Below, piece by piece: positions 24,995-47,497 of a stretch of 50,979 nt of DNA (position 1 is its first letter; each line of letters starts with the position of its first letter). A model generated the notes under the pieces. It searched no databases and was not told the origin of the DNA. It saw only the letters and a program-made list of their open reading frames with translations. Both the position numbers and the translations under genes were made by a program. Source of the DNA: a virus; IMG/VR virus record IMGVR_UViG_3300009073_000007, positions 1 through 50,979 of that record, one strand, 5' to 3'.

Positions 24995-25505
24995 TTTTAA
25001 CGAGCTTCAGCCCAATACGTTCCATGTCTTGGTCTTCTTGTGTGAGTTTCTCTGTCTTGGCTTTAACAGCCTTAGCGATGTCTGCTTTTGAAGGTCTCCC
25101 CTTCTCGGAAGCCTTGTGACGTCTCTCCCAACCTTTCTCTGCTACATACTTAGCTGAGGCAAGCTTAACCGAGTCTGCTGCTTCTGGGTCTTCCATGAGA
25201 GAGACCACAGCCTTAATAGCTCTGGCTTGGAGTTTAGCGTCAATCTCTGCGTCCCAGACTTCTTTAAGTTCTCTGAACCATGTAGCCCCCATGAGACGAC
25301 TAAAGTGTTCAAAGGAGTCTAGATAGGCTTGAGACCATTTGTATCCAGTTTTATCCTCTAGTAGGATGTAGCTCCGCTGGGCGTCCACTAATGCTCGACC
25401 ATTGTCAGGGTGAACCTTAGTCCGACCATCAATAGAGAAGATAGACCTATCAGTATCCTTCTTAAACAGTTTAGCTCTCTCGTAAAAGAGAGGAACAGTT
25501 AACAA
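24987..25505 (-). CDS. terS: Terminase small subunit (probable)
   Basis: The product from the TTG at 25505 is 172 residues. It lies first in the leftward arm, upstream of the large terminase. It is helical and charged, with a middle region KWSQAYLDSFEHFSRLMGAT, a probable oligomerisation helix (QARAIKAVVSLMEDPEAADSVKLASAKYVAEKG) and a Lys-rich tail (KADIAKAVKAKTEKLTQEDQD), as in small terminases that recognise DNA. The frame stays open upstream to an ATT codon at 25545-25547 preceded by AAGGAG at ideal distance. That would add 14 residues (ISKPTSDFFKPKGH) and may be the real start; no ATG, GTG or TTG exists there. Confidence 0.8.
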   Translation of the reverse strand: MLTVPLFYERAKLFKKDTDRSIFSIDGRTKVHPDNGRALVDAQRSYILLEDKTGYKWSQAYLDSFEHFSRLMGATWFRELKEVWDAEIDAKLQARAIKAVVSLMEDPEAADSVKLASAKYVAEKGWERRHKASEKGRPSKADIAKAVKAKTEKLTQEDQDMERIGLKLVKNG

Positions 25506-25569
25506 GTGACCTTTAGGTTTGAAGAAGTCAGAGGTGGGTTTGGAAATGCTTTTTCTCCTTATATAAGAA

Positions 25570-25618
25570 TCTTTAAAGAATCCTAAGATGTTAAACAGTT
25601 CTTAAGAGGATTTAAAGA
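25570..25618 (-). other. Hairpin in the terminase leader
   Basis: An imperfect inverted repeat with arms 25570-25588 and 25600-25618 (TCTTTAAAGAATCCTAAGA against TCTTAAGAGGATTTAAAGA) lies between the leftward promoter and the terminase small-subunit gene. The arms can pair over about 16 bases with small bulges. It would sit in the 5' leader of the long leftward transcript and could be a processing or stability element. Confidence 0.5.
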
Positions 25619-25699
25619 ACCTTTATATGTGTTAGAGTAAAGTAACTTGTTAAAGCTTATTGCACTTAGTGAAGGATGTTTAAGATACTCTATAAGATT

Positions 25700-25728
25700 A
25701 TTATACCATAAAGGTTCCGCTTTGTCAA
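25700..25728 (-). promoter_or_regulatory. Main leftward sigma70 promoter for packaging and virion genes
   Basis: On the minus strand this reads TTGACA, 17 bases, TATAAT, with TGG before the -10 box (extended -10). Both hexamers are perfect. Transcription would start near 25693 and run into the terminase small-subunit gene and the whole left arm. The spacer contains one of three copies of AAAGCGGAACC, so a bound protein would sit between the two boxes. Confidence 0.9.
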
Positions 25729-25810
25729 GCATAAAATGATAATACTTGAATATTTCTTTTAAGGTTCCGCTTTGAATCGTCTCAAAAGGATTCTATGCGG
25801 GTTCCGCTTT
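25713..25810 (-). repeat. Three-copy 11-mer at the leftward promoter (candidate operator)
   Basis: GGTTCCGCTTT occurs at 25713-25723, 25763-25773 and 25800-25810, all in the same orientation, at intervals of 50 and 37 bases. The first copy lies in the spacer of the leftward promoter; the others lie upstream of it. Three exact copies within 100 bases are far beyond chance and suggest binding sites for a regulator, phage or host, of that promoter. Confidence 0.75.
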
Positions 25811-25916
25811 TAATAGGCATTCGTTCTACAGGTATTTTCTGTTAGTAATATTTTTGGTGTCCCATTCATAGAAATAGAAGCCCCCGGCCCCCCCTTAATG
25901 CCCCCCCGGTGAAACC

Positions 25917-26278
25917 TAGGAATGGAATCCTAATGAGGCCCACACATGTTACGTTATAACATTAAGGATAGGAATGGAATCCTAACGTGTTCTGCTGGTG
26001 ACCTTAGAATGATTCTAATGGGAATTAATACCCATGTGCTCTTAGTGTGACATTTTTGCAACAGTGTCTCTTTAGTGTGACACCCTAACAGCCTAGGAAT
26101 AAATCCCTATACGATTGATATGAATAGGATTATATGCCTACATACGAGGCAATCTATCATAATCCTACCTATACATTATAATATAAAAAGGGGAATGTTA
26201 CATTATAACAATAAGACCATGAATGCCACATTGGAGGCTATTATAGGAATCAATACCTAGGCTATGAATATAATCCTA
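25917..26278. repeat. Cluster of TAGGAAT-type imperfect palindromes (candidate iterons)
   Basis: A roughly 16-base element of form TAGGAATNNAATCCTA recurs at 25917-25932, 25969-25984, 26094-26109, 26125-26140, 26244-26259 and 26263-26278, with a perfect relative TTAGAATGATTCTAA at 26004-26018. The copies vary but keep the TAGGA...TCCTA arms. Spacing is irregular (19-119 bases). Such clusters of palindromic sites in an AT-rich intergenic region are typical of replication origins or repressor-bound control regions. Confidence 0.7.
26042..26082 (+). repeat. Paired direct repeat TTAGTGTGACA
   Basis: TTAGTGTGACA is present exactly at 26042-26052 and 26072-26082, 30 bases apart, close to three helical turns, within the iteron-like cluster. 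This would place two bound proteins on the same face of the DNA. Confidence 0.6.
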
Positions 26279-26439
26279 AGCAAATGTCCCTTGAACAGCC
26301 GCCTCATAAAAAAGATTGAAAATAATTCCATCCCTAACCTATTGATAATGCTACACTTTTAAAGAAAGTTTGAATAAAAATTAGAGTGTTTGATTTATAT
26401 CAATGCGAGGCCTCTTTTATTCCCTCATATTCAAATCAT

Positions 26440-27246
26440 CGAAAGACGGGCCAGACAAACCCGGCTTTTGACCATAGCTAAAAACGTAAGTGCAAAATCT
26501 TTGCCTTGCGCATGTTGACGGACTTGAGAATAGTCTGCCTTAATAGGGCCATATAGTGCCAATCCCTTTAGATAGGGGTCTCGCTATATCGCAAAGAACG
26601 GGATAGCCATGCGTAACAAAGAACACAGTGCGGATTAGTGCGGGCGTTAAAAGCGTCAATTCGTGCCTAGCATAGGTGCGAGGATTAGTAAGATGTACGG
26701 GCTAACTCGGAACCGTAATCACTATGCAAAGGATAGGATAGTGCCCTTATAACTTGGCACAATATAGCAAGCTATAGTCCCGCTTGTTTTACGCAATGGC
26801 CCCCTTGTAATAGGTGTGGTTAGTCGGTGTAGGTGACTTTCGCTAGATGTGGGGGTTGAATTCGGAAGGTGGTAGCTAACAACTATAGCCGGAGAGCTTC
26901 AACAAACTATAGCGTTTGGAAACAAGAACCTAGGCTTTAATAGGTCTAGGCGGTGAATATATTGGCTATCAGCAATTCAGCAAATGTAGTGCGACTTTAA
27001 CCAAGCCCGTAACAGGGATGGTTTATTCTGCGTGCTACAGCGTGACTGACATATTAGGATTTCAACAAATTGATATAGATGCGTGTTAATGCAGTGGATT
27101 GCGTAAAGACCCCATGTGTGGCTATTCACCACGAGTTACACCGATAGGCTATGCTATGCCGCTTGAAAGAGCAGTGTAGTTATGGCCTATTGGCAGTGAC
27201 TTAGAGCATATCGGTAATGATGTCGGTATGTTCTTTTAACTGCCAA
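26440..27246 (+). ncRNA. Candidate large structured non-coding RNA (about 800 nt)
   Basis: No protein gene fits, yet stems are dense. Examples: 26551-26558 with 26582-26589 enclosing 26562-26567/26574-26579; 26662-26669/26673-26680; 26696-26700/26713-26717; 26720-26725/26738-26743; 26929-26937/26942-26950; 26999-27003/27019-27023 around CCC/GGG; 27190-27197/27239-27246 enclosing 27204-27210/27227-27233. Several include G-U pairs that work only if the plus strand is the RNA. GCTATAGT (26771-26778) can pair with either of two later ACTATAGC copies, a possible pseudoknot. The last stem ends 14 bases before the next start codon. Size and phage context recall GOLLD or ROOL; I cannot confirm the family. 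Confidence 0.6.
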
Positions 27247-27260
27247 CATGGAGAAACCCT

Positions 27261-30201: not shown

Positions 30202-30368
30202 AGTAGTACGCCTCTCTATTACGAACACCGACATAGCCCCATATTTGGGCTGAAAGGTGTAGCGTGAGTCTTGATAAGCGGCTACTGAAGCTTTTCAGTC
30301 TTCCTCGGGCTATGTTGGTGTTCGACCTTATTCCCTCTTCTCTCCCTTTCTTGAAGGTGTCTATTATT

Positions 30369-31847
30369 ATGTCCTCTATTTTTGCTTCTGTCCGTCACCC
30401 TCACCGTCTTCATGTGGATGAAATTAATAAGCCGGGTGTTCGTTTTTATATACGCTCTTCTTCTGCTCTTGGTTTAGGGCAGAGAGGGACACGTTTCTAT
30501 AAGACTCTTACAGGCATCTTGAAAAGAGACATGGACAAAGTAAGAGTGCCTATTTCTCCTGAAATGGCTCGTCAAGCTCTCACCAGCATAGTAAGGGAAG
30601 AACCTTTAAAGGCCTTTAGACGCCCCGGGCTCTATCCCGGAAAAGAGGGCGAATACCTCACCGCCGACGAAGTTCCTGAAAACATAATTTTTAAAGTGAC
30701 CTCAGGGAATCTTCTTGGGGGTCGTTACTGCTTCCATAAAGGTTCTTATTACTATTTAAGCGCGAGGAAGCCTAGCGAGTCCTGTTATATAGGAAAATCT
30801 ACCCCCGATTCTGACGTTTACACTGACCTACTAAGAAAGGACTACCCCTTGTCTAAACCTACCTTCATCTCTCGATTTGCAATGTCCGACCTAGAGGCTT
30901 GTTTTGGCCTTAAGACTTCTTGGCCGGAAAAGTTCGGCGACAAGAAAAAACGCCCTAAGGCGTTCACTCTTCGGGACAGCCTACGAGGAGACTTCAGCCC
31001 TTTGCAGAATCTATCATCAACATCTCGTCTCCGAAAGCACGTAATGGAGTCTGGAAACAACAGCCGTATGAACACTATAATGGATGAGCTGGCAGGGTAT
31101 CGCACCCCCACTCGATATGTCAAAATAGGCACAACTCATCAAGGCTTGTTAAGTTGTTGTGGTGCCTCTTCTTTCTTCTTCAATCACAGAACCACAAATT
31201 TCCTCTTAGAGGAGAAAGTGGCCGAAGATATTGTGAAGGCCTTAAAAAAGGAATTAGATAGAGATTGTTACACAAACAAAAGCGGAGGACAGTGTACTAC
31301 GGGAGTTCTCTTCTCCATGCCTCTTGAGATACACAAAAAGTATGGCGACATATTCCAAAAAGAAGGCTGGCACTTAGCCCTAACTGACAAAAAGACGTCT
31401 GCCCTATACTTCAAGACAACTGTCAGTGAAAAACAGCTTGAGCGTCAATCGGAACCTGCCTTCGAGATGCCTCCTACAAGAGACGCTGTCACTGATGAGA
31501 CTCTCTTAGCTACAAGGTCTAAGGTTAGCTACAGTTTCAGTCCAGAAAATATGCCTCGAGTAGGAGGACTATACGGCTTCAAGAATAATGGAGCTCCTGC
31601 TCTCTCTGCTTCCGCTTGCTACGATACGAGGTCTGCCACACAGGTTATGATACTTCGTACAAGAGGAGAGGGAAGATTCCAGATAAGAACAAACCTTGCG
31701 GAAGCGCTAGCTCTCGGCTTTGTCCCTTTAACAGAAGACGGTATGCCGTACCTAAACGGAAACTACAGGTCTTCTGACTACAGTGGGGCGTACCGTCACT
31801 GGTTGCTGCCTATGGGCCGTGTTAACCCTAACTACAAGAAAGGATAG
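30369..31847 (+). CDS. Uncharacterised large protein heading the amidoligase block (492 aa)
   Basis: I chose the ATG at 30369 with GAAGGTG ten bases upstream; an earlier GTG at 30264 has no such site. The sequence begins MSSIFASVRHPHRLHVDE and has two similar-looking halves of charged alpha/beta sequence. Candidate functional stretches are GLLSCCGASSFFFNHR (about residues 260-275), SGGQCTTGVLF and GNYRSSDYSGAYRHW near the end. I do not recognise the fold. Its position, orientation and tight spacing (five bases to the next gene) place it in the same operon as the ligases, as a possible substrate-binding or acceptor protein. Confidence 0.75.
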   Translation: MSSIFASVRHPHRLHVDEINKPGVRFYIRSSSALGLGQRGTRFYKTLTGILKRDMDKVRVPISPEMARQALTSIVREEPLKAFRRPGLYPGKEGEYLTADEVPENIIFKVTSGNLLGGRYCFHKGSYYYLSARKPSESCYIGKSTPDSDVYTDLLRKDYPLSKPTFISRFAMSDLEACFGLKTSWPEKFGDKKKRPKAFTLRDSLRGDFSPLQNLSSTSRLRKHVMESGNNSRMNTIMDELAGYRTPTRYVKIGTTHQGLLSCCGASSFFFNHRTTNFLLEEKVAEDIVKALKKELDRDCYTNKSGGQCTTGVLFSMPLEIHKKYGDIFQKEGWHLALTDKKTSALYFKTTVSEKQLERQSEPAFEMPPTRDAVTDETLLATRSKVSYSFSPENMPRVGGLYGFKNNGAPALSASACYDTRSATQVMILRTRGEGRFQIRTNLAEALALGFVPLTEDGMPYLNGNYRSSDYSGAYRHWLLPMGRVNPNYKKG

Positions 31848-31852
31848 CCTAT

Positions 31853-32254
31853 ATGGCAAAAGTCACCAGCACTTTCCCTAAGGCCGACCCTAGAGACCGT
31901 GAGTTTATCTCTCGGCCTGAAGTGGATGATTTCGTTTTAATCGACCCCGATGAGCCTACGGAAATTCCTCCTCTTGAGGCCTCTCTCTACGAAGGAGACC
32001 CTAAGTATGTCTTAGCCTCTGATGAGATTGAGCTCTTTCTCTTTTGCTTAGAGACTTCTGCAATGGAGCCCCGAAAGATTGAGTCTGCAAAAGTAGAGCC
32101 AACCTATTTCGCCTTCACAGACGATTGGGACATCGTACAACTATCTCTCGATGAACTCAAATGGAGAATAGCGGAAGACCTAACCCTCAATGGCCACCCA
32201 GTTATAGTAGGCCCCCAATACTGGGAACAAGATTTTATGAACAAGGACCGATAA
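31853..32254 (+). CDS. Hypothetical acidic protein (133 aa)
   Basis: Behind AAAGGA, the protein is acidic (EVDDFVLIDPDEPTEIPPLE, SDEIELFLFCLET). It ends with helix and a short aromatic stretch (VIVGPQYWEQDF). It lies between the 492-residue protein and the cyclotransferase, with only a few bases to either neighbour. An acidic carrier or adaptor could serve amide ligation, but that is conjecture. Confidence 0.65.
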   Translation: MAKVTSTFPKADPRDREFISRPEVDDFVLIDPDEPTEIPPLEASLYEGDPKYVLASDEIELFLFCLETSAMEPRKIESAKVEPTYFAFTDDWDIVQLSLDELKWRIAEDLTLNGHPVIVGPQYWEQDFMNKDR

Positions 32255-32257
32255 CCT

Positions 32258-32707
32258 ATGACAGCCTATAACCAATCTATCACACCCTCCTCTAACACCC
32301 TAACTGTTGGCGATAAGTTCGCTGTATACGGTACTCTCCGTGAAGGATGTGGCAACTACGAAGCCCTAAGGCTAGGCTCTCGTGCCAAATTCATTGGAAA
32401 AGATACCGTTGATGGTATCCTCTTTGGGTTACACGGAGGCTACCCCGGCCTAGTAGCTGAACATCCTGAGGTTGACACGACTACTGTTGAACCTGTAGTA
32501 GTTGAAATCTACGAGATTGTTGAGCCAACTTTAGGGCAAAGTCTTGATGGTCTCGAAGGGTATTACTTTGAGAGACAAGACGCTTCCCTCTACTTAAGAG
32601 CGGAGACTACCCCTCACACTTTACAGGAACCTGTTGAAATCTACTACTATAACAGGGATTTTCGAGTGGAGTCGCTTATTGAAAGCGGGGATTGGACAAA
32701 GAGATAA
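32258..32707 (+). CDS. Gamma-glutamylcyclotransferase-like protein (AIG2 fold)
   Basis: The 149-residue protein carries the signature YGTLR at residues 24-28 and the general-acid Glu in LDGLEGY (Glu100), with the beta-barrel core between (DGILFGLHGGYPGLV). Enzymes of this fold release 5-oxoproline from gamma-glutamyl amides. In phage and bacterial clusters with amidoligases, as described by Iyer and colleagues in 2009, they are proposed to trim or reverse gamma-glutamyl linkages made by the partner ligases. It overlaps no neighbour and has AAGGA upstream. Confidence 0.85.
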   Translation: MTAYNQSITPSSNTLTVGDKFAVYGTLREGCGNYEALRLGSRAKFIGKDTVDGILFGLHGGYPGLVAEHPEVDTTTVEPVVVEIYEIVEPTLGQSLDGLEGYYFERQDASLYLRAETTPHTLQEPVEIYYYNRDFRVESLIESGDWTKR

Positions 32708-32751
32708 GTTAGTGCCTATTATTAGGTTCCTTAACTCTGCCCCTTAAAGGT

Positions 32752-32779
32752 ATTATACCACATATTTCAGATTTGTCAA
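32752..32779 (-). promoter_or_regulatory. Consensus sigma70 promoter pointing against the right arm
   Basis: On the minus strand this reads TTGACA, 16 bases, then TATAAT with TGG before it (extended -10). It lies in the 79-base gap between the cyclotransferase and the class I amidotransferase, both of which are on the plus strand. The transcript would be antisense to the preceding early genes. The -10 part (GGTATAAT) is the same as in the main leftward promoter at 25700-25728. Confidence 0.75.
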
Positions 32780-32786
32780 GAGAAAA

Positions 32787-33608
32787 ATGCAAATGTCCAA
32801 AAGAAAAAGAAGAAAGAAAGAGCAAAGGAGAAAGAAGTTGCTTGAACAAAAAACTAAAAAGTCTCCTTTTGAGAAGACTAAGAACCCCCTCGCCGTCTTC
32901 TGTGCGGGGTCTATTGGAGACCCTAGTTGGCACCCCGGTGTCGAAATACAGAATTGGCTAGTCATCAGAGGACACACTGTTACCTATAATCCTTCAAAGG
33001 CAGATATAATAGTCTTTGCTGGTGGGCCTGACATATCCCCTTCGCTCTATAATCAACCGAAGCACTATGCCACTAGGGCTTATTCCCCTGAACGAGACTT
33101 CTATGAGAAGAACCTAGCTGTTCTCGGAAAGGACACGTTTAAGCTCGGTATTTGTCGCGGAGCCCAACTGCTGAATGTTCTTAGTGGTGGCACTATGATA
33201 CAAAATATCGGCAATAAACGGCATCTATCACCACACGCTGTACGTTTGATAAAAGAACCTCAAGTGTTCGAAAGAGTCACTTCCACCCATCATCAAATGA
33301 TGGTGCCTTCCCATAAGGTTTCTAACAGGGAAATATTGGCGGTAACTTTCAACAAGACGACGGGAAAGGACACTCTTTCGGCTTCCCCTCATGAAAAGGA
33401 GTTGCCTCTTCCTATGGCTCGTAACAGGCTGGAGTTTTTCGCCAAAAGAAAAATGTCTGACTTTGACCTTATGCGGCAAGACGCAGAAATCATATACTGC
33501 AATAATACCCGTTCTCTGTGCATTCAAGCACACCCAGAGAGAATGTTAGGCTCATCTTTTGAACGATACTGTTTTAGTCTCGTTGAGAAGTACGCCGCGA
33601 CTAAATAA
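32787..33608 (+). CDS. Class I glutamine amidotransferase-like hydrolase (peptidase C26 type)
   Basis: The 273-residue protein has the triad of this fold: nucleophile Cys123 in GICRGAQLLNVLSGG, and His249 with Glu251 in CIQAHPER. The oxyanion-region GGPDISPSLY comes at 79-88. It is closest in pattern to gamma-glutamyl hydrolases such as PuuD, which cleave gamma-glutamyl amides. The first 33 residues are an unusual Lys/Arg-rich extension (MSKRKRRKKEQRRKK). As part of the amidoligase block it could supply ammonia or remove gamma-glutamyl groups. Confidence 0.88.
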   Translation: MQMSKRKRRKKEQRRKKLLEQKTKKSPFEKTKNPLAVFCAGSIGDPSWHPGVEIQNWLVIRGHTVTYNPSKADIIVFAGGPDISPSLYNQPKHYATRAYSPERDFYEKNLAVLGKDTFKLGICRGAQLLNVLSGGTMIQNIGNKRHLSPHAVRLIKEPQVFERVTSTHHQMMVPSHKVSNREILAVTFNKTTGKDTLSASPHEKELPLPMARNRLEFFAKRKMSDFDLMRQDAEIIYCNNTRSLCIQAHPERMLGSSFERYCFSLVEKYAATK

Positions 33609-33643
33609 ACTAATATTAACCACATCAACAAAATGGAGACTAT

Positions 33644-34717
33644 ATGTGTGGACACGTAGGAGTAGCTGGAGATTTAAATTCAGCATCAGTAGACGCTTTC
33701 AAAGACTTACTGTTCTTTGATACTGTCAGAGGAGCCCACGGCACTGGTATAGCCTCTGTCCCTTGGGCAAAAGGGAGCCGTGAGCCAGATGATTGCAAAA
33801 TCATCAAAGCTCCTGTAGACGCTCCAACCTTTTTAGGTATTGAAGCTGTCAAGACGATGCTTCGAAGCACATCACACTCTGTTCTTATCGGGCATAACCG
33901 TCATGCGACTAAGGGTGAACATATTTTCGAGAACACTCACCCTTTCATGACAGAGAACATTGTCGGCGCACACAATGGCACTGTCAGTGACTTGTCCGAC
34001 CTAACCTTTGACGGGTCATGGGGCACAGACAGCGAAGAAATCCTTAACAATATCTCCGAGAACGGGATTAAGGATACTCTTTCTAAGCTTCGTTCTGGCT
34101 ACTCCGGGGCTTGGGCTCTTGTGTACTATGACTTCACTACAAATGAAATCTGTATGGTACGCAACGATGAACGCACTCTCTGTTTCGCTCTATCCGAAGA
34201 TAAGAAACAATTATTCTGGGCTTCTGAGGCCAACATGCTACGTCTAGCTTGCGCTAGAAAGGGGCGTGTTAAGTTGGACACCATCTACTCTCTGCCCATA
34301 AACGTTGAATTTCGATGGGCCGTCCCTGCCGTAGGCGAGGAGTTCGGTAAAGAAGAACGGGTGACTGTGAAACCAAAAAAGCCTCTCCCCCCTGCCTCTT
34401 ACCGTGGTGGGGTCACTAACAGCTATCGAAATAATTACAGTAACGTTCACGGATTTAGCCAGAACAAAAGAAAAGTAGACACGTCCAAGTCTTCCCTCGC
34501 CTCTTCTGTTGGGCTTGTCCTTGAGCCATATGAGATGAGCGAAGGCGAGTTACTGGAAGTCTTCTCTAAAGGCACTGCTTTCTGTTGTTGGTGTACTTCC
34601 AACGTGGACTCTGACGATAAAGGCACTGTTGCGGTAGCCCCTAAGTCTATTCTTTGTGGCTCTTGCGCTAAAGAAGTCGAACTCCAAAAAGCTTACGAGT
34701 CTAACCGTACTGCTTAG
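33644..34717 (+). CDS. Class II glutamine amidotransferase with C-terminal zinc ribbon
   Basis: The protein begins Met-Cys-Gly, so Cys2 becomes the N-terminal nucleophile typical of class II (Ntn) amidotransferases after Met removal. Supporting motifs are TVRGAHGTGIA (27-37), HNRHATKGEH (84-93), HNGTVSDL (110-117) and GTDSEEI (127-133). No synthase domain follows. Residues about 314-341 instead form a zinc-ribbon pattern, CCWC with a later CGSC. It would release ammonia from glutamine for a ligase elsewhere in the block. The stand-alone glutaminase with a zinc ribbon is unusual. Confidence 0.88.
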   Translation: MCGHVGVAGDLNSASVDAFKDLLFFDTVRGAHGTGIASVPWAKGSREPDDCKIIKAPVDAPTFLGIEAVKTMLRSTSHSVLIGHNRHATKGEHIFENTHPFMTENIVGAHNGTVSDLSDLTFDGSWGTDSEEILNNISENGIKDTLSKLRSGYSGAWALVYYDFTTNEICMVRNDERTLCFALSEDKKQLFWASEANMLRLACARKGRVKLDTIYSLPINVEFRWAVPAVGEEFGKEERVTVKPKKPLPPASYRGGVTNSYRNNYSNVHGFSQNKRKVDTSKSSLASSVGLVLEPYEMSEGELLEVFSKGTAFCCWCTSNVDSDDKGTVAVAPKSILCGSCAKEVELQKAYESNRTA

Positions 34718-34760
34718 TCTTTTAAATCACCCCTCTTCCCTTTGAAAGGAATCTATCATC

Positions 34761-35570
34761 ATGACCAACAAGTTAATCACAATCGGATGTGACCCTGAAG
34801 TTTTTGTAATTGACTCTTCTACTAAAGAGTTTGTAAGTGCTCACGGCCTACTGCCCGGCAACAAGGAAAATCCTCACGTCGTTAAAGACGGGGCAATCCA
34901 AATTGACGGAATGGCCTGTGAGTTTAACACTGACCCTGTGACTACTCGCGAAGACTTTGTCTCTAAGGTCCAATCAGTGTTTGCTTCAATGACCTCACAG
35001 CTTCCCTCAGGCATTATCCCTGTCCCCGGCGTCCCTGTGGCCCATTTCAGTCCAGAGGTCTACTCAGCACAGCCCTACGAGGCTCTTGAGCTAGGCTGCG
35101 AGCCAGATTATGACGCATATTCTATGGGTGTCAACCCTCGTCCTGACGTATCTACAGGGACTATGCGTACTGCTGCTGGTCATATTCACATAGGGTTTAC
35201 ATCTGAGATGGTGTCAGACCCGTTCAACGAGAACCACTTCAAAGACTGCTGCTCTTTAGTAAAACACTTAGACGCCACCTTAGGTGTCTACTCCCTCACT
35301 TATGACCAAGACGTAGAGCGTCGGTCTCTTTATGGGGCTGCTGGTGCTTTCCGACCTAAAGAGTACGGAGTTGAGTACCGTGTATTGTCTAACGCTTGGC
35401 TCCTCTCTCCTGACCTTATGGGAGAAGTTTTTGACCGAACTGTTAAAGCCACACAACAGTGGATGGCAGGAGAAGTGTTGCCAGACTTTATGCACACTAA
35501 AGCCCGGGAAATTATAAACGAAAGTTCAGTTGACGTCGTTCCGGCATTTCTTTCGGCTGTTGGACACTAG
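34761..35570 (+). CDS. phiEco32-type COOH-NH2 ligase (GS-fold amidoligase)
   Basis: The 269-residue protein matches the phage COOH-NH2 ligase type 2 pattern: GCDPEVFV at 9-16 with the first metal-binding Glu13, GMACEFN at 50-56 (Glu54), AAGHIHIGF at 138-146, and RRSLYGAAGAFRPKEYGVEYRVLSNAW-region residues 188-213 with Glu205 and Arg207. The family has a glutamine-synthetase-like fold and is predicted to join a carboxylate to an amine with ATP. An AATCTATCATC motif lies between its AAAGGA site and the ATG, so translation may be controlled there. Confidence 0.9.
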   Translation: MTNKLITIGCDPEVFVIDSSTKEFVSAHGLLPGNKENPHVVKDGAIQIDGMACEFNTDPVTTREDFVSKVQSVFASMTSQLPSGIIPVPGVPVAHFSPEVYSAQPYEALELGCEPDYDAYSMGVNPRPDVSTGTMRTAAGHIHIGFTSEMVSDPFNENHFKDCCSLVKHLDATLGVYSLTYDQDVERRSLYGAAGAFRPKEYGVEYRVLSNAWLLSPDLMGEVFDRTVKATQQWMAGEVLPDFMHTKAREIINESSVDVVPAFLSAVGH

Positions 35571-35604
35571 ATAGAAATAAAACTTAAAAGGAGTATACGC
35601 GGTT

Positions 35605-36429
35605 ATGACTAAGGTAAAGAAAAAAAGCTTCGCCCCTGACTACGGGACCATTAATGATTGGAGGATGCGGATAAAGGATTCTGTTGTTTTCTATGATGGC
35701 ATTCCTTTTTATGTAGAGGAGATTGTTACGAATCTCCCCCCAGAAGTCAAGAGAACAGAGGTAGAGCTAATATCTTTGTACAACACGGCTGGCACTGTCG
35801 AGCAACAAAGAGAGCGACGTAAAAATCTAGATGATTTCCGGGCTTCTCCTGAATACGTGGCTAAGTATTCAGCTTCCGGTTTTTCCCTTGAATGTCCTAA
35901 AGACTTCGTAGATGAACCTCCTAGGAGCGACAGAAAGACTATCCCTGTGGAAGAGTTAGACCTCCGTATCCGCAATATCGGGTTAAGTAATTTCTCTTGG
36001 AGCTCTCGTAAAGGTAAAGAAGTTAAGAGATATATTGCTTACGCTTGTTCTCGTGCTCCTTTCACTCAAACTAAACAAGGCCTACAGACACGCAACATTC
36101 AAATTAAGCCTGTATCAAACGACGACAGGGGCTTATTTGAAAGAAGTAGTATCCTCTCTGGGGGTTACATCTCCTCATTGTACGGAATCTACCCGAGCCC
36201 TGACGAATGCCTGAAGAGACTCTTTGAATGTTCTGAAGAGAACTCTATGGCGTTTAGTAATCAGTTCTCCTTCACAGTAGATGAAGTAGGACACGTCACA
36301 GTCAGTCACTTGACTAGACACATAGGAACATACTCACAAGAGAGAGAAGAGGTATCTCTTTTGGGTAAATATCACTACCTCAAAGAATCGTTGGAAGAAT
36401 TAGGAGTATCTTGTGCCGACAATCTATAA
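35605..36429 (+). CDS. Hypothetical protein between the two amidoligases (274 aa)
   Basis: The start has AAGGAG upstream. The protein is basic at the N-terminus (MTKVKKKSFAPDYG) and soluble. Stretches are RKGKEVKRYIAYACSRAPF and, near residue 185-200, SILSGGYISSLYGIYPSPDE, followed by VDEVGHVTVSHLTRHIG. Its 3' end overlaps the start of the next amidoligase by 17 bases, which implies coupled expression. No family is recognised; it may be a partner or substrate of the ligases. Confidence 0.7.
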   Translation: MTKVKKKSFAPDYGTINDWRMRIKDSVVFYDGIPFYVEEIVTNLPPEVKRTEVELISLYNTAGTVEQQRERRKNLDDFRASPEYVAKYSASGFSLECPKDFVDEPPRSDRKTIPVEELDLRIRNIGLSNFSWSSRKGKEVKRYIAYACSRAPFTQTKQGLQTRNIQIKPVSNDDRGLFERSSILSGGYISSLYGIYPSPDECLKRLFECSEENSMAFSNQFSFTVDEVGHVTVSHLTRHIGTYSQEREEVSLLGKYHYLKESLEELGVSCADNL

Positions 36430-37744
36430 AAAAACCAACCTATCTAAGCCTACACGGCTAAAAAGGGCAGACCCTTACACTACCACTGTTCGGGAATACT
36501 TCGGAGCCTTTCGGGAAGAAGTCAACGGGACTTTGTTCGGTATTGAAGTCGAAGTGGAAGACTCTAATGACCGATACCCCTCTGCGGCTTCTATGAAAAG
36601 TCACGGTAGCTTGTGGAAAGCTGTTGAAGATAACTCTCTTCGTAACACTAAGGGGGAGCCCGGAGGACGGGAGTTCATCTCCGCGTCTCCTATCTCTTAC
36701 GCTCAAGTCCCTCTCGCTGTAGAACAGCTCTCTGCCCTTTTTAAGAGAGCCAACATGTCAATAACCCCTTCTATCCGAACGTCTGTTCATGTCCACATGA
36801 ATGTGCAAGACATGACCTTAGAAGCCCTTGTCCGTCTCTTGTTGATGTACTATGTAGCAGAGCCTCTTTTGAGCCGCTATAACGGAGCTGAACGGGAGCA
36901 CAACTTGTTTGCTCTTCAGGCGACTCAGGCCCCTCTTTTAGTGGAGTCCTTGATGAGCTTCCTAGAAGACCGCAACGTAGATAATGGTCTTAGGTATTCT
37001 GCTCTCAACTATATGCCTCTGCGTCGTGGAACAAGTAAGAGTTTCGGGACTATTGAATTTCGTGCTGGGCGTGGTCTTCAAGAATCTCCTTCTGAGCTAA
37101 TTCAGTGGTTATCTATCATCAATGAGCTTCGCTTGTCTATTGACGGTATCGCAGAGCCAACAGAAGTCATTCAACAGTTCTCTTCTCTGTCTCCTGTTGG
37201 CTTTATCCGGCAACATCTTCCTCTTCTTTACGCCTCCACTCGAGACCTATTCGAGGGACCAGAGGAGATGGAAAACTCTCTCCGTGATGCTCTACGTGTC
37301 GTTCAATGCCTTGCTTACGATATTGACTGGGGAAAGTACGAGCCAGAACAAGGTAGTGTCAGCAAGAAAAAGAAGTATGTTTCTATGACAACACCTCCGA
37401 CAACCTTTAACCGGCCTCTAGACAATATCTTTATTGACGAGGCTACTTTCATTGACCCTCACGCCCCTGCCCCTGTCACCCCTACCGCCCCTGCTCAAAT
37501 TCATCGTGATGCGATGCCTTTTGAAGAAGGCCACCCTTACTCAGCCTACTATATATCAGCTGGAGAGGACCCCGACGAGTTCTTCCGCCTTTTGTCAGAT
37601 TTTCTAGACTTCCCTCGGAATGTTAGGGACAGAGGAGTCTTAAGAGGTAATATTGTAGTAGCTTGTCTTCGTGCCGATATAGCTGACGAAAGAATTGAGA
37701 ACATCATCAAAGAATATTGGATTAACCGAGAAGGACTAGACTAA
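36413..37744 (+). CDS. Amidoligase (Amidoligase_2-type, GS fold)
   Basis: A GTG start with AGGAG seven bases upstream gives 443 residues. The family motifs are in order: FGIEVEVE (42-49) with metal-binding Glu, VEDNSLR (71-77), GGREFIS (84-90), SVHVHMN (124-130), then YSALNYMPLRR (195-205) and GTIEFRAGRG (212-221). These enzymes are proposed to make amide bonds using ATP and a free amine. The C-terminal 120 residues (Pro/Ala-rich, PHAPAPVTPTAPAQ, then a small helical domain) are extra. Two different GS-fold ligases in one operon suggest two bonds in sequence. Confidence 0.88.
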   Translation: MPTIYKKTNLSKPTRLKRADPYTTTVREYFGAFREEVNGTLFGIEVEVEDSNDRYPSAASMKSHGSLWKAVEDNSLRNTKGEPGGREFISASPISYAQVPLAVEQLSALFKRANMSITPSIRTSVHVHMNVQDMTLEALVRLLLMYYVAEPLLSRYNGAEREHNLFALQATQAPLLVESLMSFLEDRNVDNGLRYSALNYMPLRRGTSKSFGTIEFRAGRGLQESPSELIQWLSIINELRLSIDGIAEPTEVIQQFSSLSPVGFIRQHLPLLYASTRDLFEGPEEMENSLRDALRVVQCLAYDIDWGKYEPEQGSVSKKKKYVSMTTPPTTFNRPLDNIFIDEATFIDPHAPAPVTPTAPAQIHRDAMPFEEGHPYSAYYISAGEDPDEFFRLLSDFLDFPRNVRDRGVLRGNIVVACLRADIADERIENIIKEYWINREGLD

Positions 37745-37745
37745 G

Positions 37746-38840
37746 ATGTCAAAAACTACCGTCAACAGAATTTTCATTCACCCTTATAAGCAAGCCTCCT
37801 CTTCTGCCGCTTCTCTTGCGGAAGCTGTAGGCGGCAAGAGGCTCCTAGTGAATGGGAAGTCTAAGTACAAGCACCGAGAGAGTGACCTAGTAATCAACTG
37901 GGGCTCCAGTAAAAAGTTTGTAGACTGTCCTATGCTCAATGAGCCCACGGTTGTCTCTAGGGCCTCCAATAAACTGACCTTCTTTGAGGCCTTGAAAAAC
38001 TCCACGGCTCGTCTTGTGCCTTATACTTCCGACGTAAAAAAGGTTGTTGAGTGGCTCGACAAGGGGCACACTGTTTGTGCTCGTACCAAGCTCACAGGGC
38101 ACTCTGCCGAAGGTCTTGTTGTACTTGACCCTAAAAAAGAGCTTGACATTCCTGATGCAAAGCTATATACTAAGTATGTGCCTAAGTCCTCAGAGTATCG
38201 TGTTCATGTGTTTAACGGAGAAGCTATCCGAATACAAAAGAAGATACTTAGACCAGAGCTCACAGAGCAAATTCGTACTAATGAGATTGACTCTGAGAGT
38301 ATTGACTGGAAGGTTCGCAACCATAAGAATGGTTTTATATATGTCGTTGAAGGTGTAAGAGAAGAATGTCCTGAAGATGTTGTTGTTCAAGCCCTTCAAG
38401 CTGTAAAGGATATACGCTTAGTGTTTGGCGCTGTAGATGTTATCTGGAACCGTACTAAGAAAAACGCCTTCGTCTTAGAGATTAACACCAGTCCCGGCCT
38501 TGAAGGCGGTACTATTGACGCATATGTCGAAGCTATTAAAGGCCTTGACATTGATAAAATAGTTAAGACTCTTGGCGCTAACCCTTATAGTGCTATGACC
38601 TTAGACCAAGCTAGGCGGTGTTCGAGTCCTTCTTGCTGGTCTGTACGAAGTGTTGTAAGAGCGGCTAGGGGCATTTCCTCGGAGTTTTGTAGCTGGTCTA
38701 CCTCTTCTCAGGTCACAGGTGAAATAGGGGAGAGAATCTGTGCGACAGAGTTTGAGAGCTTTGCGAATTCTGGTGAAGTGATTGAAGATGTAATCTTGTT
38801 CGCTCAAGCTATTTGCGACAAACTCGAATACCCCTACTAA
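37746..38840 (+). CDS. ATP-grasp ligase
   Basis: The 364-residue protein has ATP-grasp features: TKLTGHSAEGLVV (114-126), equivalent to the glycine-rich loop; KYVPKSSEYRVHVFNGE (143-159); and metal ligands in FGAVDVIW (Asp231) and AFVLEINTSPGLEGG (Glu245, Asn247). This is the RimK/glutathione-synthetase type that forms acyl-phosphate intermediates and then amide bonds. The last 80 residues are Ser/Cys-rich and may be a separate small domain. It closes the amidoligase block, starting one base past the preceding stop. Confidence 0.9.
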   Translation: MSKTTVNRIFIHPYKQASSSAASLAEAVGGKRLLVNGKSKYKHRESDLVINWGSSKKFVDCPMLNEPTVVSRASNKLTFFEALKNSTARLVPYTSDVKKVVEWLDKGHTVCARTKLTGHSAEGLVVLDPKKELDIPDAKLYTKYVPKSSEYRVHVFNGEAIRIQKKILRPELTEQIRTNEIDSESIDWKVRNHKNGFIYVVEGVREECPEDVVVQALQAVKDIRLVFGAVDVIWNRTKKNAFVLEINTSPGLEGGTIDAYVEAIKGLDIDKIVKTLGANPYSAMTLDQARRCSSPSCWSVRSVVRAARGISSEFCSWSTSSQVTGEIGERICATEFESFANSGEVIEDVILFAQAICDKLEYPY

Positions 38841-38894: not shown

Positions 38895-39095
38895 ATGCGA
38901 TGTAATATTTGCAACACCTTTATGCCACACTTCACAACTCATCCTATCACTGGTAAGATTGAGCCTTGTAGGGTGTGTATCAAAGCTTCTGAGCCTTCCT
39001 TTGACCCAGAAGCTTTTGATGACTTTACCGACGACGACTTCGAACATCTCCTAAACGAAGAACCAACTGTAGTCGGCAAGAATGATGAGAAATAG
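38895..39095 (+). CDS. Small zinc-finger protein (66 aa)
   Basis: Behind GGAG, the product begins with a Cys4 pattern (CNICNTF then CRVCIKA near residue 28), consistent with a zinc ribbon. A strongly acidic tail follows (FDDFTDDDFEHLLNEE). A copy of AATCTATCA lies 56 bases upstream in its leader. It overlaps the primase-helicase start, so it may regulate or assist replication. Confidence 0.7.
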   Translation: MRCNICNTFMPHFTTHPITGKIEPCRVCIKASEPSFDPEAFDDFTDDDFEHLLNEEPTVVGKNDEK

Positions 39096-40815
39096 TGAAT
39101 CTACTCTCGTCAGCAAGGGGCCGTGTAAACACTGTCCTTCAAGCGATGCGTGTGGTCTTTATGATGATGGCCATACGTATTGCTTCTCTTGCGGGACTCA
39201 CACTTCGAATCCCTCTAAGGCCTCGTCTACTAAGGCCAACCCTGAAACAGAACAGAAAAAGAAACCATCAGTGAGTAAAAAATCGACGACAACCCCCCCT
39301 GAACTACCTAAAGACTTCACCCCTTTGAAAGATAGAGCCATCAGCGCTGATACGGCAAAGAAATATCAAGTTACTCAAAATCTTGGAGAAGGCCGTACTA
39401 AGCATATATACCCTTATTTTGATAAAGAAACAGGTGACTATGTAGCAGCTAAATATCGTTCCCATACCAAATCTTTTGGGTGGAAAGGCGACACCTCTCG
39501 GATAGGCCTCTTCGGACAGCAACTCTTTCCTGCTAACAGCGCTAAGGCGATAACAATTGTCGAAGGCGAGTGTGACGCTATGGCTGCTTATCAGATGCAA
39601 GGGTCACGTTACCCCGTAGTGTCTGTGACGTCTGCTGGGGCTGCCCCTAAGGACTGCCTCGCTAACTTCAATTACCTTAACTCTTTCAAAGAGATTGTTA
39701 TCGTGTTTGACAAAGATGAAGGCAAACGAAACCCTGCTACAGGTGTGACCCACTATGTAGGACAAGAGGCTGCTCAAGCAGTGGCTAAATTGTTCCCTAT
39801 CGGTAAGGTCCGCATAGTCACTCTGAATGAATATAAAGACGCTAACGACTACCTCATAGAGGGTAAACAAGCCAGCTTCATGAAAGAATGGTGGTCTGCC
39901 CCTACCTACACTCCCGCTGGCCTAGTAGTAGGTAAAGACCTCTGGGACAAAATTAAGGAGCCTAAAGAAAATGATTCGATACCTTGGCCTTGGGACTCTC
40001 TCAATGAAAAAACTTACGGCATCCGTCTATCTGAAATGGTTGTTGTTACAGCCGAGACAGGAGTCGGTAAGACAAGTCTCCTTAAAGAGTCTCAACACAA
40101 CATACTATCAATCTCCGATGACGTTGGGATTGGGATTTTGCATCTTGAGGAACCTAACGACGACACTGCGTTGGGGCTCATTTCGATTACCGCCAATAAA
40201 CCTCTACACTTACCCGATGTTCGGGCGGAAGTAACTACGGAGCAGATGAGAGGATGGTTCGAAGAGACCCTTGATAATGACCGAGTTGTCATGTGGGACC
40301 ATTTTGGTTCTAATACCATTGAAGAAGTTATAGCTAACATTAGGTTCATGCACAACATGGGCTGTAAGTATATCTTCCTAGACCACTTTAGCATCCTTGT
40401 TAGTGACCAGAACGGTGACGAACGTAAGCAGCTAGACGAAGCGGCAACCAAGTTGAAGACCCTCTGTATGGAATTGGATATAGCTCTTATTGGAGTTATC
40501 CACCAGAACCGTCAAGGTCAGATACGTGGCACTGCTGGCGTAGAACAGTTAGCCAACATTGTCATTAAGATTAACCGGGACAAGAAAGCTAAAGACCCTT
40601 TCATCCGTAACGTAACTGTGATGGAAGTAGAAAAGAACCGCTTCTGTGGTCGCACTGGCCCCGCAGGTTTCCTCTTCTACGAAGCCAACACAGGCCGTAT
40701 GCGAGAGTTAACTGAAGAAGAAGCAAGAAGGTTTGAAGAAGGCATCCCTCAAGAAGGGTTTACCTACGAAGAACCACCAACAGAAGAATGGAAGGACGAC
40801 CCTACCGATGAATGA
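39082..40815 (+). CDS. Primase-helicase (T7 gp4-like)
   Basis: The 577-residue protein has a zinc motif at about 15-38 (CKHCPSSDACGLYDDGHTYC, then CG). The TOPRIM primase core follows, with IVEGECDAMAAYQ (about 159-171) and IVFDKDEG. The RecA-like helicase has Walker A TAETGVGKTSLL (about 323-334) and IFLDHFSILV as Walker B. The toroidal enzyme primes and unwinds for the phage polymerase encoded just downstream. The end is acidic. The gene start overlaps the zinc-finger gene and its stop overlaps a membrane protein gene. Confidence 0.95.
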   Translation: MMRNSESTLVSKGPCKHCPSSDACGLYDDGHTYCFSCGTHTSNPSKASSTKANPETEQKKKPSVSKKSTTTPPELPKDFTPLKDRAISADTAKKYQVTQNLGEGRTKHIYPYFDKETGDYVAAKYRSHTKSFGWKGDTSRIGLFGQQLFPANSAKAITIVEGECDAMAAYQMQGSRYPVVSVTSAGAAPKDCLANFNYLNSFKEIVIVFDKDEGKRNPATGVTHYVGQEAAQAVAKLFPIGKVRIVTLNEYKDANDYLIEGKQASFMKEWWSAPTYTPAGLVVGKDLWDKIKEPKENDSIPWPWDSLNEKTYGIRLSEMVVVTAETGVGKTSLLKESQHNILSISDDVGIGILHLEEPNDDTALGLISITANKPLHLPDVRAEVTTEQMRGWFEETLDNDRVVMWDHFGSNTIEEVIANIRFMHNMGCKYIFLDHFSILVSDQNGDERKQLDEAATKLKTLCMELDIALIGVIHQNRQGQIRGTAGVEQLANIVIKINRDKKAKDPFIRNVTVMEVEKNRFCGRTGPAGFLFYEANTGRMRELTEEEARRFEEGIPQEGFTYEEPPTEEWKDDPTDE

Positions 40816-41053: not shown

Positions 41054-42994
41054 GTGTACCTAAACCACCCAGACAACGGACTAAACTACTATGCTATCGA
41101 CATTGAAGCCGATAGCCTCACACCTACGAAAATATGGTGTGTTGTAATCAAAGAAATTTACGGTGAGGAGGACACTTGGTCCTTCCGTCCCGCTGACATC
41201 GAGAACGGATACTTAGCAGATTTCATTAATACGTTAAAGGATAAGCCCACAACAAGATGGGTCGGACACAATGCAATCTCTTATGACATTCCTGCGCTCA
41301 ATGCTCTTGCTGGGACTTCTATTAATATCAATGATATTGTGGATACCCTCACTCTTAGTTATCTATATGACCCGCACATGCGTGGTGGTCACAGCCTCTC
41401 TGCTTGGGGTGCGAGATTCGGCAACCAAAAAATAGAGTTTGACGACTTCTCTCACTTCACTGAAGAGATGTTAAGCTATTGTGAGCAGGACGTAGAAATC
41501 ACTGCCACCCTCTTCAAACGTCTTTCTGGGCGAATGAAGCTTAAAGGTTTTAGTGAGCTTTCATGTGAAATTGAACACAAAATAAGGAAAATTATTGATG
41601 AGCAAACAGCTAATGGGGTCAAGTTCGACGAACGACGAGCGACTATTCTCTTGGCGGAGCTCCAGTCTCTTAAAGCCAACGTGGAGAAACGCATTCATAG
41701 CGTCTTCCCTCCCAAACTTGTCCTCCAAGGTGAATATCACTATCGACTTCGACAAGATGGAACCCCCTACGCCTCATATAAAAAACATCTTGAACGATAT
41801 TCTCGACTTACCTTCAGCAATAGCGGAAAGATGTACCGAACATGGGATTACAAGGATTTCAATATTGGTTCCCCCAAGCAAAGAGTGGAACGACTACTCG
41901 CTCTGGGTTGGAAGCCGACAGAATTCACACCCAAAACTCCGAAAGGAGGGGGCGGAAATCCCAAGGTAACTGAAGACCAACTCCTAGCCTTTGCCAAAAA
42001 ATCTGGACTAGAGGAAGTAGCACTAATCTCTGATTGGATGCTCTACTCTGGACGTATCAGGTCTCTTGAGGAGTGGTTGAAGCACTTGAAAGACGATGGT
42101 CGTATTCATGGCCGCGTCTTCTCGTGTGGGGCAGGTACTCGACGCATGAGACACACCACACCTAATACCGCTAACATCTGTTCCGCTGACAAGCCTTATG
42201 GACGTGAGCTCCGTGAATTGTGGACTGTCTCTGAAGGGTCTCTTCTAGTAGGGATTGACGCTAAAGGCCTTGAAGGCCGGGTATTGATGCACTACTTGGA
42301 TAATCCTGCTGCGGAAGAGTTCCTAACCTCTGACTTCCATACAGCTAACGCTATTGCTGTCTACGAAGCTCTAGGGTTAAAAGAAATCTCTGAGAATCTC
42401 CGTAAATGGAGAGACGCTGGGAAGCCTAAAGAAGACGAAGAATCTAACGGTTATCGTCAAATCCTTAAGGCCCTCTTCTATGCGTTCCTCTACGGGGCTT
42501 CTGACCCTAAGCTTGGAAAGATGATGGGCAAGAACCGTAAAGTCGGTATCGTTGTACGTGCCACTCTTATGGAGAATGTTCCGGGTCTTAAAGAGCTAAC
42601 AGAGAAAGTTCAGAGTGAGTACCACTCGACTAAAGAAGGATGGATTGAGACTATTGATGGTGGCTTTGTTCGTTGCCCGAGTCCTCACGCCGCCCTTAAC
42701 TACCTCTGTCAGTCCGCTGGCGGAATCTTAATGAAGCTTGCAACTATCCTCGCCTACGGATACTCTATAAACGCTCTTGACGGAGCTAAGATGGAAACTC
42801 CTTGGGACCTCGACAGGTGTAAAAAAGTTCTGGACGTCCACGACGAGGTTCAGATGGAATCGGAGAAAAACTACGCTAAAGAGTGTGGAGAAGTTTATTG
42901 TCAATCTATCACACTCGCGGGCCAACTGCTGGGCTTTAACGTACTAATGGAAGGAGACTATAATGTCGGACCAAACTGGGCAGACACACATTAA
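41054..42994 (+). CDS. DNA polymerase, family A (T7 gp5-like)
   Basis: A GTG start directly after the previous stop gives 646 residues. The 3'-5' exonuclease comes first: YAIDIEADSL (13-22), GHNAISYDIPAL, and SYCEQDVEIT (about 140-150). The polymerase follows: motif A GIDAKGLEGRVLMHYL (about 398-413), motif B RQILKALFYAFLYGAS, and motif C VLDVHDEVQM (about 590-600). It is smaller than T7 gp5 (704 residues); the exonuclease looks intact and the thioredoxin-binding insertion is not evident. It replicates the phage genome with the adjoining primase-helicase. Confidence 0.95.
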   Translation: MYLNHPDNGLNYYAIDIEADSLTPTKIWCVVIKEIYGEEDTWSFRPADIENGYLADFINTLKDKPTTRWVGHNAISYDIPALNALAGTSININDIVDTLTLSYLYDPHMRGGHSLSAWGARFGNQKIEFDDFSHFTEEMLSYCEQDVEITATLFKRLSGRMKLKGFSELSCEIEHKIRKIIDEQTANGVKFDERRATILLAELQSLKANVEKRIHSVFPPKLVLQGEYHYRLRQDGTPYASYKKHLERYSRLTFSNSGKMYRTWDYKDFNIGSPKQRVERLLALGWKPTEFTPKTPKGGGGNPKVTEDQLLAFAKKSGLEEVALISDWMLYSGRIRSLEEWLKHLKDDGRIHGRVFSCGAGTRRMRHTTPNTANICSADKPYGRELRELWTVSEGSLLVGIDAKGLEGRVLMHYLDNPAAEEFLTSDFHTANAIAVYEALGLKEISENLRKWRDAGKPKEDEESNGYRQILKALFYAFLYGASDPKLGKMMGKNRKVGIVVRATLMENVPGLKELTEKVQSEYHSTKEGWIETIDGGFVRCPSPHAALNYLCQSAGGILMKLATILAYGYSINALDGAKMETPWDLDRCKKVLDVHDEVQMESEKNYAKECGEVYCQSITLAGQLLGFNVLMEGDYNVGPNWADTH

Positions 42995-46759: not shown

Positions 46760-47497
46760 TTGAAAATACTTATATACGATATTGAAACTACCCCTATTAC
46801 GGGTTACGCTTGGTCTACTTGGAACACTAATATAATTGAAGTGACCAAAGACTGGCAAATGATTTGCTTCGCCTATAAATGGTACGGGCAAAAGAAAACC
46901 TACTTTGTACGACCCCCCGAAGGAGACCCTTACAACGATATTGAAATGGTCAAAACCCTCTGGGGGCTGTTCGACGAAGCTGATGTTGTCATAGGGCATA
47001 ACGTAGATAAATTCGACGTTAAGAAAGCTAACGCTTTATTCATCCGACACGGACTTACTCCCCCAGCTCCTTTTAGAACCATTGACACCTTGAAGATTGC
47101 GCGTAAAAACTTTGCGAATACTTCTAACCGTCTGGACTCTTTAGGGGACACACTAGGTCTAGGGCGTAAGACTCCCGGAGCAGGTTATATGAAGCTCTTT
47201 AAAGGTTGCATGTTAGAGGACAATCCTCGTGCATGGAAGCTCATGAAGAAGTATAACCTTCAAGACGTTAATCTAACCGAGAAGCTTTACAAAAAGCTCT
47301 TACCTTGGATTAAAGCCCACCCGATTGATTTAGAGAAATCTACAGGATGTACTAACTGTGGTTCACATGACCTCCAAGCACGAGGCTATCGTGAGACACG
47401 TTCATTCCGTTACAGACGGTTTAGATGTAATTCTTGTGGCACTTGGATGTCTGAGCGTACTCACGATAAAAGCATAGGAAAGCCTGAATATGTATAA
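46760..47497 (+). CDS. DEDD-type 3'-5' exonuclease with C-terminal zinc ribbon
   Basis: A TTG with AAGGA eight bases upstream gives 245 residues. The exonuclease motifs are [10 protein letters not shown] (3-12), [18 protein letters not shown] (about 76-93) and [19 protein letters not shown] (about 172-190), matching the RNase-H-like fold of polymerase B exonucleases. A zinc ribbon then follows: [16 protein letters not shown] and CNSCGTW at the end. The phage polymerase already has its own proofreading domain, so this one probably degrades or processes other DNA or RNA. Confidence 0.85.

Follow-up and report, generated by a model that had tools for sequence, protein, structure and literature searches.

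What do the nine adjacent genes at positions 30369-38840 of the virus record IMGVR_UViG_3300009073_000007 make, and which of them belong together? The window, that is, the whole stretch of DNA analysed, is the entire virus record of 50,979 bases. The block covers 8,472 of these, or 16.6% of the genome, close to the one sixth given in an earlier note on this DNA. We find that the block is not new: it is a divergent copy of a known, widespread phage amidoligase module, of the type reportedly described by Iyer et al. in 2009. Numbering the genes p1 to p9, the near-constant core of the module consists of p5, p6, p7, p8 and p9; p4 is nearly constant and p3 is optional. The nine genes are as follows.

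30369-31847, + strand: p1, 492 amino acids, lineage-specific, at the usual place of a gene of a family here named U
31853-32254, + strand: p2, 133 amino acids, acidic, lineage-specific, blank in family searches
32258-32707, + strand: p3, 149 amino acids, gamma-glutamyl(amine) cyclotransferase of the AIG2/GGACT family (PF06094, phrog_2520), accessory
32787-33608, + strand: p4, 273 amino acids, gamma-glutamyl hydrolase of the class I amidotransferase fold, Peptidase C26 (PF07722, phrog_7218)
33644-34717, + strand: p5, 357 amino acids, stand-alone class II glutaminase (PF13522, phrog_4736)
34761-35570, + strand: p6, 269 amino acids, COOH-NH2 ligase of the phiEco32 type, GS/GCS-type (PF14395, phrog_3815)
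35605-36429, + strand: p7, 274 amino acids, uncharacterised core member (phrog_11055), overlapping p8 by 17 bases
36413-37744, + strand: p8, 443 amino acids, Amidoligase_2, GS/GCS-type ligase (PF12224, phrog_7469)
37746-38840, + strand: p9, 364 amino acids, RimK-like ATP-grasp ligase carrying a C-terminal extension specific to this lineage (phrog_2599)

The list of open reading frames (ORFs) of the window confirms nine adjacent, co-directional and tightly packed ORFs on the + strand. Their intergenic distances are 5, 3, 79, 35, 43, 34, -17 and 1 bases, in line with the earlier description of gaps mostly under 60 bases or overlapping. The p1 ORF stays open from an upstream GTG at 30264.

The catalytic residues expected of their families are retained in six genes of the block: the motifs that had been picked out from the sequence alone are now backed by family matches and by conservation in alignments. 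Pfam matches were judged against the curated cut-offs, and PHROGs was used for the two proteins that fall below them. The cyclotransferase p3 matches GGACT above the cut-off (E 7.7e-15), and in the family alignment it keeps the YGTLREG and LDGLEG segments, including the conserved Glu. Also above the cut-off, p4 matches Peptidase_C26 (E 2e-17); its nearest solved chain is Lin1909 (3fij), and its residues Cys123, His249 and Glu251 are identical in all 72 aligned family members. The match of p5 to GATase_6 passes the cut-off as well (E 1.2e-10; phrog_4736, 2.9e-63). It carries the RG, GHNR, HNG and TDS motifs, and its nucleophile Cys2 is found in 68 of 87 alignment rows, the other 19 being gapped there. 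The C-terminal tail of p5 bears two CxxC pairs, a zinc-ribbon-like set of four cysteines. The block had been credited with two glutaminases: one is indeed a class II glutaminase with an N-terminal Cys, and the other is more aptly taken as the gamma-glutamyl hydrolase of the C26 family. Those C26 enzymes whose function has been established act by hydrolysing gamma-glutamyl amides.

The ligases are as well preserved. p6 matches COOH-NH2_lig (E 2.2e-7, 30.8 bits against a cut-off of 25; phrog_3815, 8.2e-73), and its DPE, HIH and EYR motifs are invariant in 90-91 of 91 aligned sequences. In p8 the ExExE, HVH and EFR motifs are invariant in 87-88 of 88. Its Amidoligase_2 match (E 2.3e-4, 21.6 bits) lies 0.4 below the cut-off of 22, and the RimK match of p9 (E 1.6e-3, 18.5 bits against 21) is just under its own; since these scores fall only just short, the PHROGs matches to an amidoligase family (phrog_7469, E 2.9e-44) and an ATP-grasp family (phrog_2599, E 1.1e-74) settle both assignments. 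The profiles of p6 and p8 match no PDB sequence at E values up to 10, so that their GS-type assignment is drawn from Pfam and PHROGs families and from motifs. In p9 the Mg/ATP-ligand residues D231, E245 and N247 are conserved. It shares the ATP-grasp core of RimK and the alpha-L-glutamate ligases, which are its nearest solved chains (7qyr, 5zct, 4iwx); these matches are modest, and the best of them covers only the C-terminal part of the core. 'S6 glutaminyl transferase', the name that p9 receives in PHROGs, is to be read as a label and not as a tested function. From these families and residues, the block enzymes are predicted to catalyse amide-bond formation.

The same set of genes recurs far beyond this genome. 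A tblastn search of 50,697 phage records finds p6 in 317 of them and p9 in 312, and the host tallies for the two genes are almost the same. The best annotated matches are mostly Zobellviridae, the closest at 40-47% protein identity, and several relatives possess an RNA polymerase sigma factor. The set occurs in PA11, CW02, CVT22 and oyster metagenome phages, all Zobellviridae, as well as in GP100, Vibrio 275E43-1, the LUZ24-like Rembedalsseter and phiEco32, which bears out the link to the gene sets of Iyer and colleagues made in the earlier note. Comparison of the block DNA with phage DNA gave no match at the nucleotide level. Viral contigs scanned with p7, p1 or p9 as single queries yielded no relatives, the divergence being too great for that method.

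We surveyed 80 IMG/VR loci with an alignment query anchored on p6, searched all their ORFs with profiles, and counted each gene over the loci with enough flank. The glutaminase p5 is present in 58/58, p7 in 73/74 (lying between p6 and p8), p8 in 74/74, p9 in 52/52 and p4 in 55/58; a primase is found in 69/74. The cyclotransferase p3 occurs in only 14/52, so its family is confirmed and its place is outside the constant core. A second scan, anchored on p8, yielded 54 loci outside the first set, with p6 in 45/45, p5 in 37/37, p7 in 44/46 and p9 in 45/46. The order p5-p6-p7-p8-p9 is kept in 62 surveyed loci, and in most of the remaining ones the sole change is a p9 that has moved or been duplicated, which suggests a gene able to shift position inside the module. 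It had been allowed that related phages might lack most members, with no linkage between them; both surveys decisively show the opposite. With family E values down to 8e-73 and 1e-74 and an order recurring in more than 100 other loci, random matches are ruled out as an explanation of the block.

Two further observations concern the arrangement of the genes. In loci such as L026, L027, L071, L077 and L092, the sole or a second RimK-like ATP-grasp gene is found on the upstream side of p5. In locus L085, a 736-residue ORF (6737-8947) was considered as a p5 fusion and rejected: it joins a major-head-protein segment (phrog_2263) to a C-terminal p5 fragment just before p6, probably arose by chimeric assembly or by recombination, and is not taken as evidence of fusion.

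Is the module also cellular? We scanned one genome per species from 84,980 bacterial and archaeal species, starting with a pattern-based step. Only nine contigs emerged, all from metagenome-assembled genomes, and the module is thus essentially viral; given that first step, the scan does not prove its absence from other cells. Eight of the nine contigs carry at least two further module genes, and two of these eight are phage-sized (46-50 kb).

The member of the core that no enzyme family claims is p7. Of the three proteins previously left unassigned, p7 proves to be a near-constant member of the core module with relatives in over 120 loci; p1 and p2 are lineage-specific. It belongs to a PHROGs family of unknown function (phrog_11055, E 1.9e-11) and has no Pfam or NCBIfam match. 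In the p8-anchored set it lies immediately 5' of p8 in 49/50 cases. The two p7-negative loci of that set still hold about 507 and 729 bases between p6 and p8, leaving room for a diverged copy. In phiEco32, gp85 takes the same position and matches the p7 profile (E 5e-7 in a search of 14 proteins), sharing with the p7 family the segments NPVRQ-AKGL and HYKGALVG; the p7 counterpart in the E. coli phage Bas92 is Bas92_0067. The AlphaFold (AF2) model of p7 is usable (pLDDT, the predicted local distance difference test score, of 80.5). Searched with Foldseek, it finds no PDB chain better than E 0.24; its matches below 1e-5 in BFVD are uncharacterised viral proteins, including the CW02 gene at the same position. 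We considered an EF-P/eIF5A-like fold and rejected it: chains 1yby, 1eif and 3hks reach only E 0.24-0.9, with TM (template modelling) scores of about 0.3 or less.

A small protein with a fixed place between two ligases in over 120 loci, and with no enzyme-family match, invites the idea of p7 as the acceptor or carrier of the pathway: it would bear the glutamyl or amide product while this is built by the two GS-type ligases and the ATP-grasp enzyme, much as LysW serves lysine biosynthesis. If true, hundreds of lytic phages would share an unrecognised, protein-templated system of amide modification. The family alignment speaks otherwise: it shows neither a conserved acidic C-terminus nor an invariant Lys, and its most conserved residues are Gly and Arg. 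The commonest hairpin Lys of the family (72%) is a Leu in the p7 of the window, and p7 diverges fast. We regard a carrier role as improbable.

Does p7 keep closer company with one of its neighbours? We compared pairwise divergence across 53 dereplicated loci by rank correlation, with primase divergence as covariate. The partial correlation of p7 with p8 is 0.35 (95% interval 0.21-0.50) and with p6 0.05 (-0.10 to 0.20), a difference of 0.30 (0.13-0.47). As p6 and p8 both adjoin p7, adjacency does not account for this signal. A Pearson coefficient of 0.84 between the divergence of p7 and that of p5 and p8 was set aside; after dereplication the rank correlations are 0.28-0.40. The strongest partial correlations are p4-p6 (0.45), p5-p8 (0.37), p4-p5 (0.37) and p7-p8; none of the partners in p4-p6 and p5-p8 has a higher value with another gene. 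Together, the correlations agree with a pairing of ligase and hydrolase and with an amidation trio, and the preference of p7 for p8 suggests that these two may form a physical or functional pair.

We give about equal weight for and against the reading that the block is one biosynthetic machine, which works during replication to put new amide bonds into a target. Its most likely function would be the stepwise gamma-glutamyl or amide modification of a single target during infection. The data establish the families, their catalytic residues, the near-complete co-occurrence and order of the genes, and the divergence of p7 tracking p8 over p6. Pfam finds no SIS isomerase domain in p5; having neither a synthase nor an isomerase domain, p5 needs a partner. 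It would split glutamine and hand on the ammonia; the recipient, a GS-type ligase and most likely p8, would activate a carboxylate using ATP. p7 may serve as a dedicated adaptor that tethers p8 to either the glutaminase or the substrate. p6 and p9 would add amino acids, in the simplest case glutamate linked by its gamma- or alpha-carboxylate, either to the product as it grows or to an amine. p4 would then strip gamma-glutamyl groups, either to deprotect an intermediate or in turnover, and p3, in some phages only, would destroy gamma-glutamyl-amine side products as 5-oxoproline. We infer the order of these reactions, the pairing of p5, p7 and p8, and the glutamate chemistry. The target may be a small metabolite, a peptidoglycan peptide or a protein.

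Several points weigh against such a machine. Nothing in the analysis identifies its substrate or product, and ammonia use is not obligatory for GS-type ligases. The co-divergence is modest: only the preference of p7 for p8 over p6 is statistically clear, and p4-p6 and p5-p8 do not stand significantly above rival pairs. p9 covaries with no module gene and is sometimes duplicated or relocated upstream, and may act separately from the rest of the module. As the fold of p7 has no match, its adaptor role is argued from position and co-divergence only.

Known systems offer partial parallels. In the E. coli Puu pathway, the GS-type ligase PuuA and the C26 hydrolase PuuD act on gamma-glutamyl-putrescine: glutamylate, process, deglutamylate. 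A GS-type ligase likewise accompanies a gamma-glutamyl hydrolase of the C26 family in the block, which differs in its extra ligases and its glutaminase. Pfam finds no oxidase or dehydrogenase of the PuuB/PuuC families among the nine block proteins, and the remaining genome was scanned in part. With GlmS (GFAT), p5 shares the class II glutaminase domain and not the SIS domains; in NCBIfam it reaches 24-28 bits where the cut-offs are 381-418, and the PHROGs name is misleading.

Among phages, the module of phiEco32, PaP3/LUZ24-like phages and Zobellviridae has the same COOH-NH2 ligase, gene of about 200 codons, amidoligase, glutaminase and ATP-grasp, followed by primase/helicase, and in many a gamma-glutamyl cyclotransferase nearby. 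In LUZ24-like UFV-P2, the order is COOH-NH2_lig, a 186-residue unknown, Amidoligase_2, an HNH endonuclease, GATase_6, ATP-grasp, AIG2 and primase (PMC3890496). The window differs from the shared module in that its cyclotransferase lies upstream and not downstream, its p7 (274 against about 200 residues) and p9 are longer, U is missing, and it has its own p1 and p2. The block of the window also includes a C26 gene, whereas none is annotated in that of phiEco32.

Could the final target be a host protein? Here the RimK-like enzyme would place glutamyl or amide groups onto a translation or defence factor, as counter-defence or another modification of the host. RimK relatives modify ribosomal protein S6, and the block is part of the replication arm. 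According to Burroughs et al. (PMC4431377), ATP-grasp and COOH-NH2 ligases, when linked, often act one after the other. No host target is indicated, however, and the window proteins have no PADLOC match, though PADLOC models cover defence and not counter-defence. This explanation appears unlikely to us.

The setting of the module bears on a further possibility. In this genome and in annotated relatives it stands in the replication arm, beside primase, helicase and polymerase genes. Immediately downstream of the block are the following genes.

38895-39095, + strand: p10, a 66-residue CxxC protein between the module and the primase, with a counterpart at the same position in only a subset of relatives (17 loci)
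39082-40815, + strand: DNA primase/helicase (phrog_239, 4e-154), the near-constant neighbour found in 69/74 relatives

Class II glutaminases and class I amidotransferases do take part in peptidoglycan amidation (LtsA, MurT/GatD), and the ligases might amidate or extend peptidoglycan or surface peptides, closing the infected cell to other phages. Such a cell-wall role against superinfection is credited to Iyer 2009 for phiEco32 in PMC10580990. Its replication-gene neighbours argue against this role, as does the lack of any Mur-ligase-like component in the block by Pfam; our literature search found no test of it. We deem it unlikely, marginally less so than a host-protein target.

Alternatively, the genes might serve the infected cell by incorporating ammonia into glutamate, cysteine and glycine. 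A hydrolase, three different ligases and a dedicated p7 partner exceed the needs of assimilation, and both glutamine synthetase and glutamate synthase are commonly encoded by the host itself. A role in nitrogen metabolism was put forward for the planctomycete phage ZRK32, whose addition stimulated growth, according to passages of PMC10945688; in these passages the effect is not linked to the genes by mutation. We judge this the least probable explanation, highly unlikely overall. Our literature search found no experiment identifying the product of the module.

For the stepwise modification of a single target, the survey narrows the problem to a five-gene core. p7 belongs in any reconstitution, paired first with p8. 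The module recurs in more than 300 phage records and fills about one sixth of this genome. phiEco32 with its gp85 offers a homologous, laboratory-tractable E. coli system for the 2009 prediction. New here are the core status of p7, this pointer to gp85, the optional cyclotransferase and a lineage-specific exchange at the U position.

That exchange concerns p1 and p2. A U gene of about 300 codons (phrog_34254/27195/38092, families of unknown function) occupies the site before p4 in 54/58 relatives. No window ORF matches the U profile at E values up to 10, and U is also absent from L012, the locus closest to the window. Pfam, PHROGs, NCBIfam and PADLOC are all blank for p1, and tblastn finds no match to it in the 50,697 phage records. 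Its sole relative is L012:4797-5849, at 22% identity, with CCGA and RWLLPM-R-NP-Y motifs common to both; a scan with the alignment of this pair gave no further relatives. The structure model of p1 is unusable (pLDDT 35). p2 has no family match in Pfam, PHROGs or NCBIfam and weakly matches the syntenic L012 gene at 5749-6384 (27% over 98 residues). Apart from L012, the surveyed loci contain no counterpart of p1 or p2, and both are confined to this lineage. That p1 is a divergent U protein was rejected (hhalign probability 0.3%); either p1 and p2 replace U, or U is dispensable. The suggestion that the 492-residue p1 is a head protein serving as acceptor finds no support: the major head protein gene is at 18890-19891 on the - strand (phrog_267). 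One U protein, L055:5539-6474, bears Cys-His-Ala, Asn-Arg-Ser and Gly-His motifs and has a weak, probably chance PADLOC match to PD-T4-2_A (E 0.0011).

Elsewhere in the genome, the junction of the two gene arms (25505-27260) has no ORFs over about 50 codons and no Rfam match. Among its several short direct repeats are CCTAGGAATGGAATCCTA-like copies at 25915-26278; the stretch is possibly a replication or promoter region. In the structural arm, 3812-5857 (- strand) encodes a 681-residue protein with no PHROGs match. On the + strand, a DNA polymerase with an exonuclease segment is encoded at 41054-42994 and a separate exonuclease subunit at 46760-47497 (phrog_17, phrog_403).

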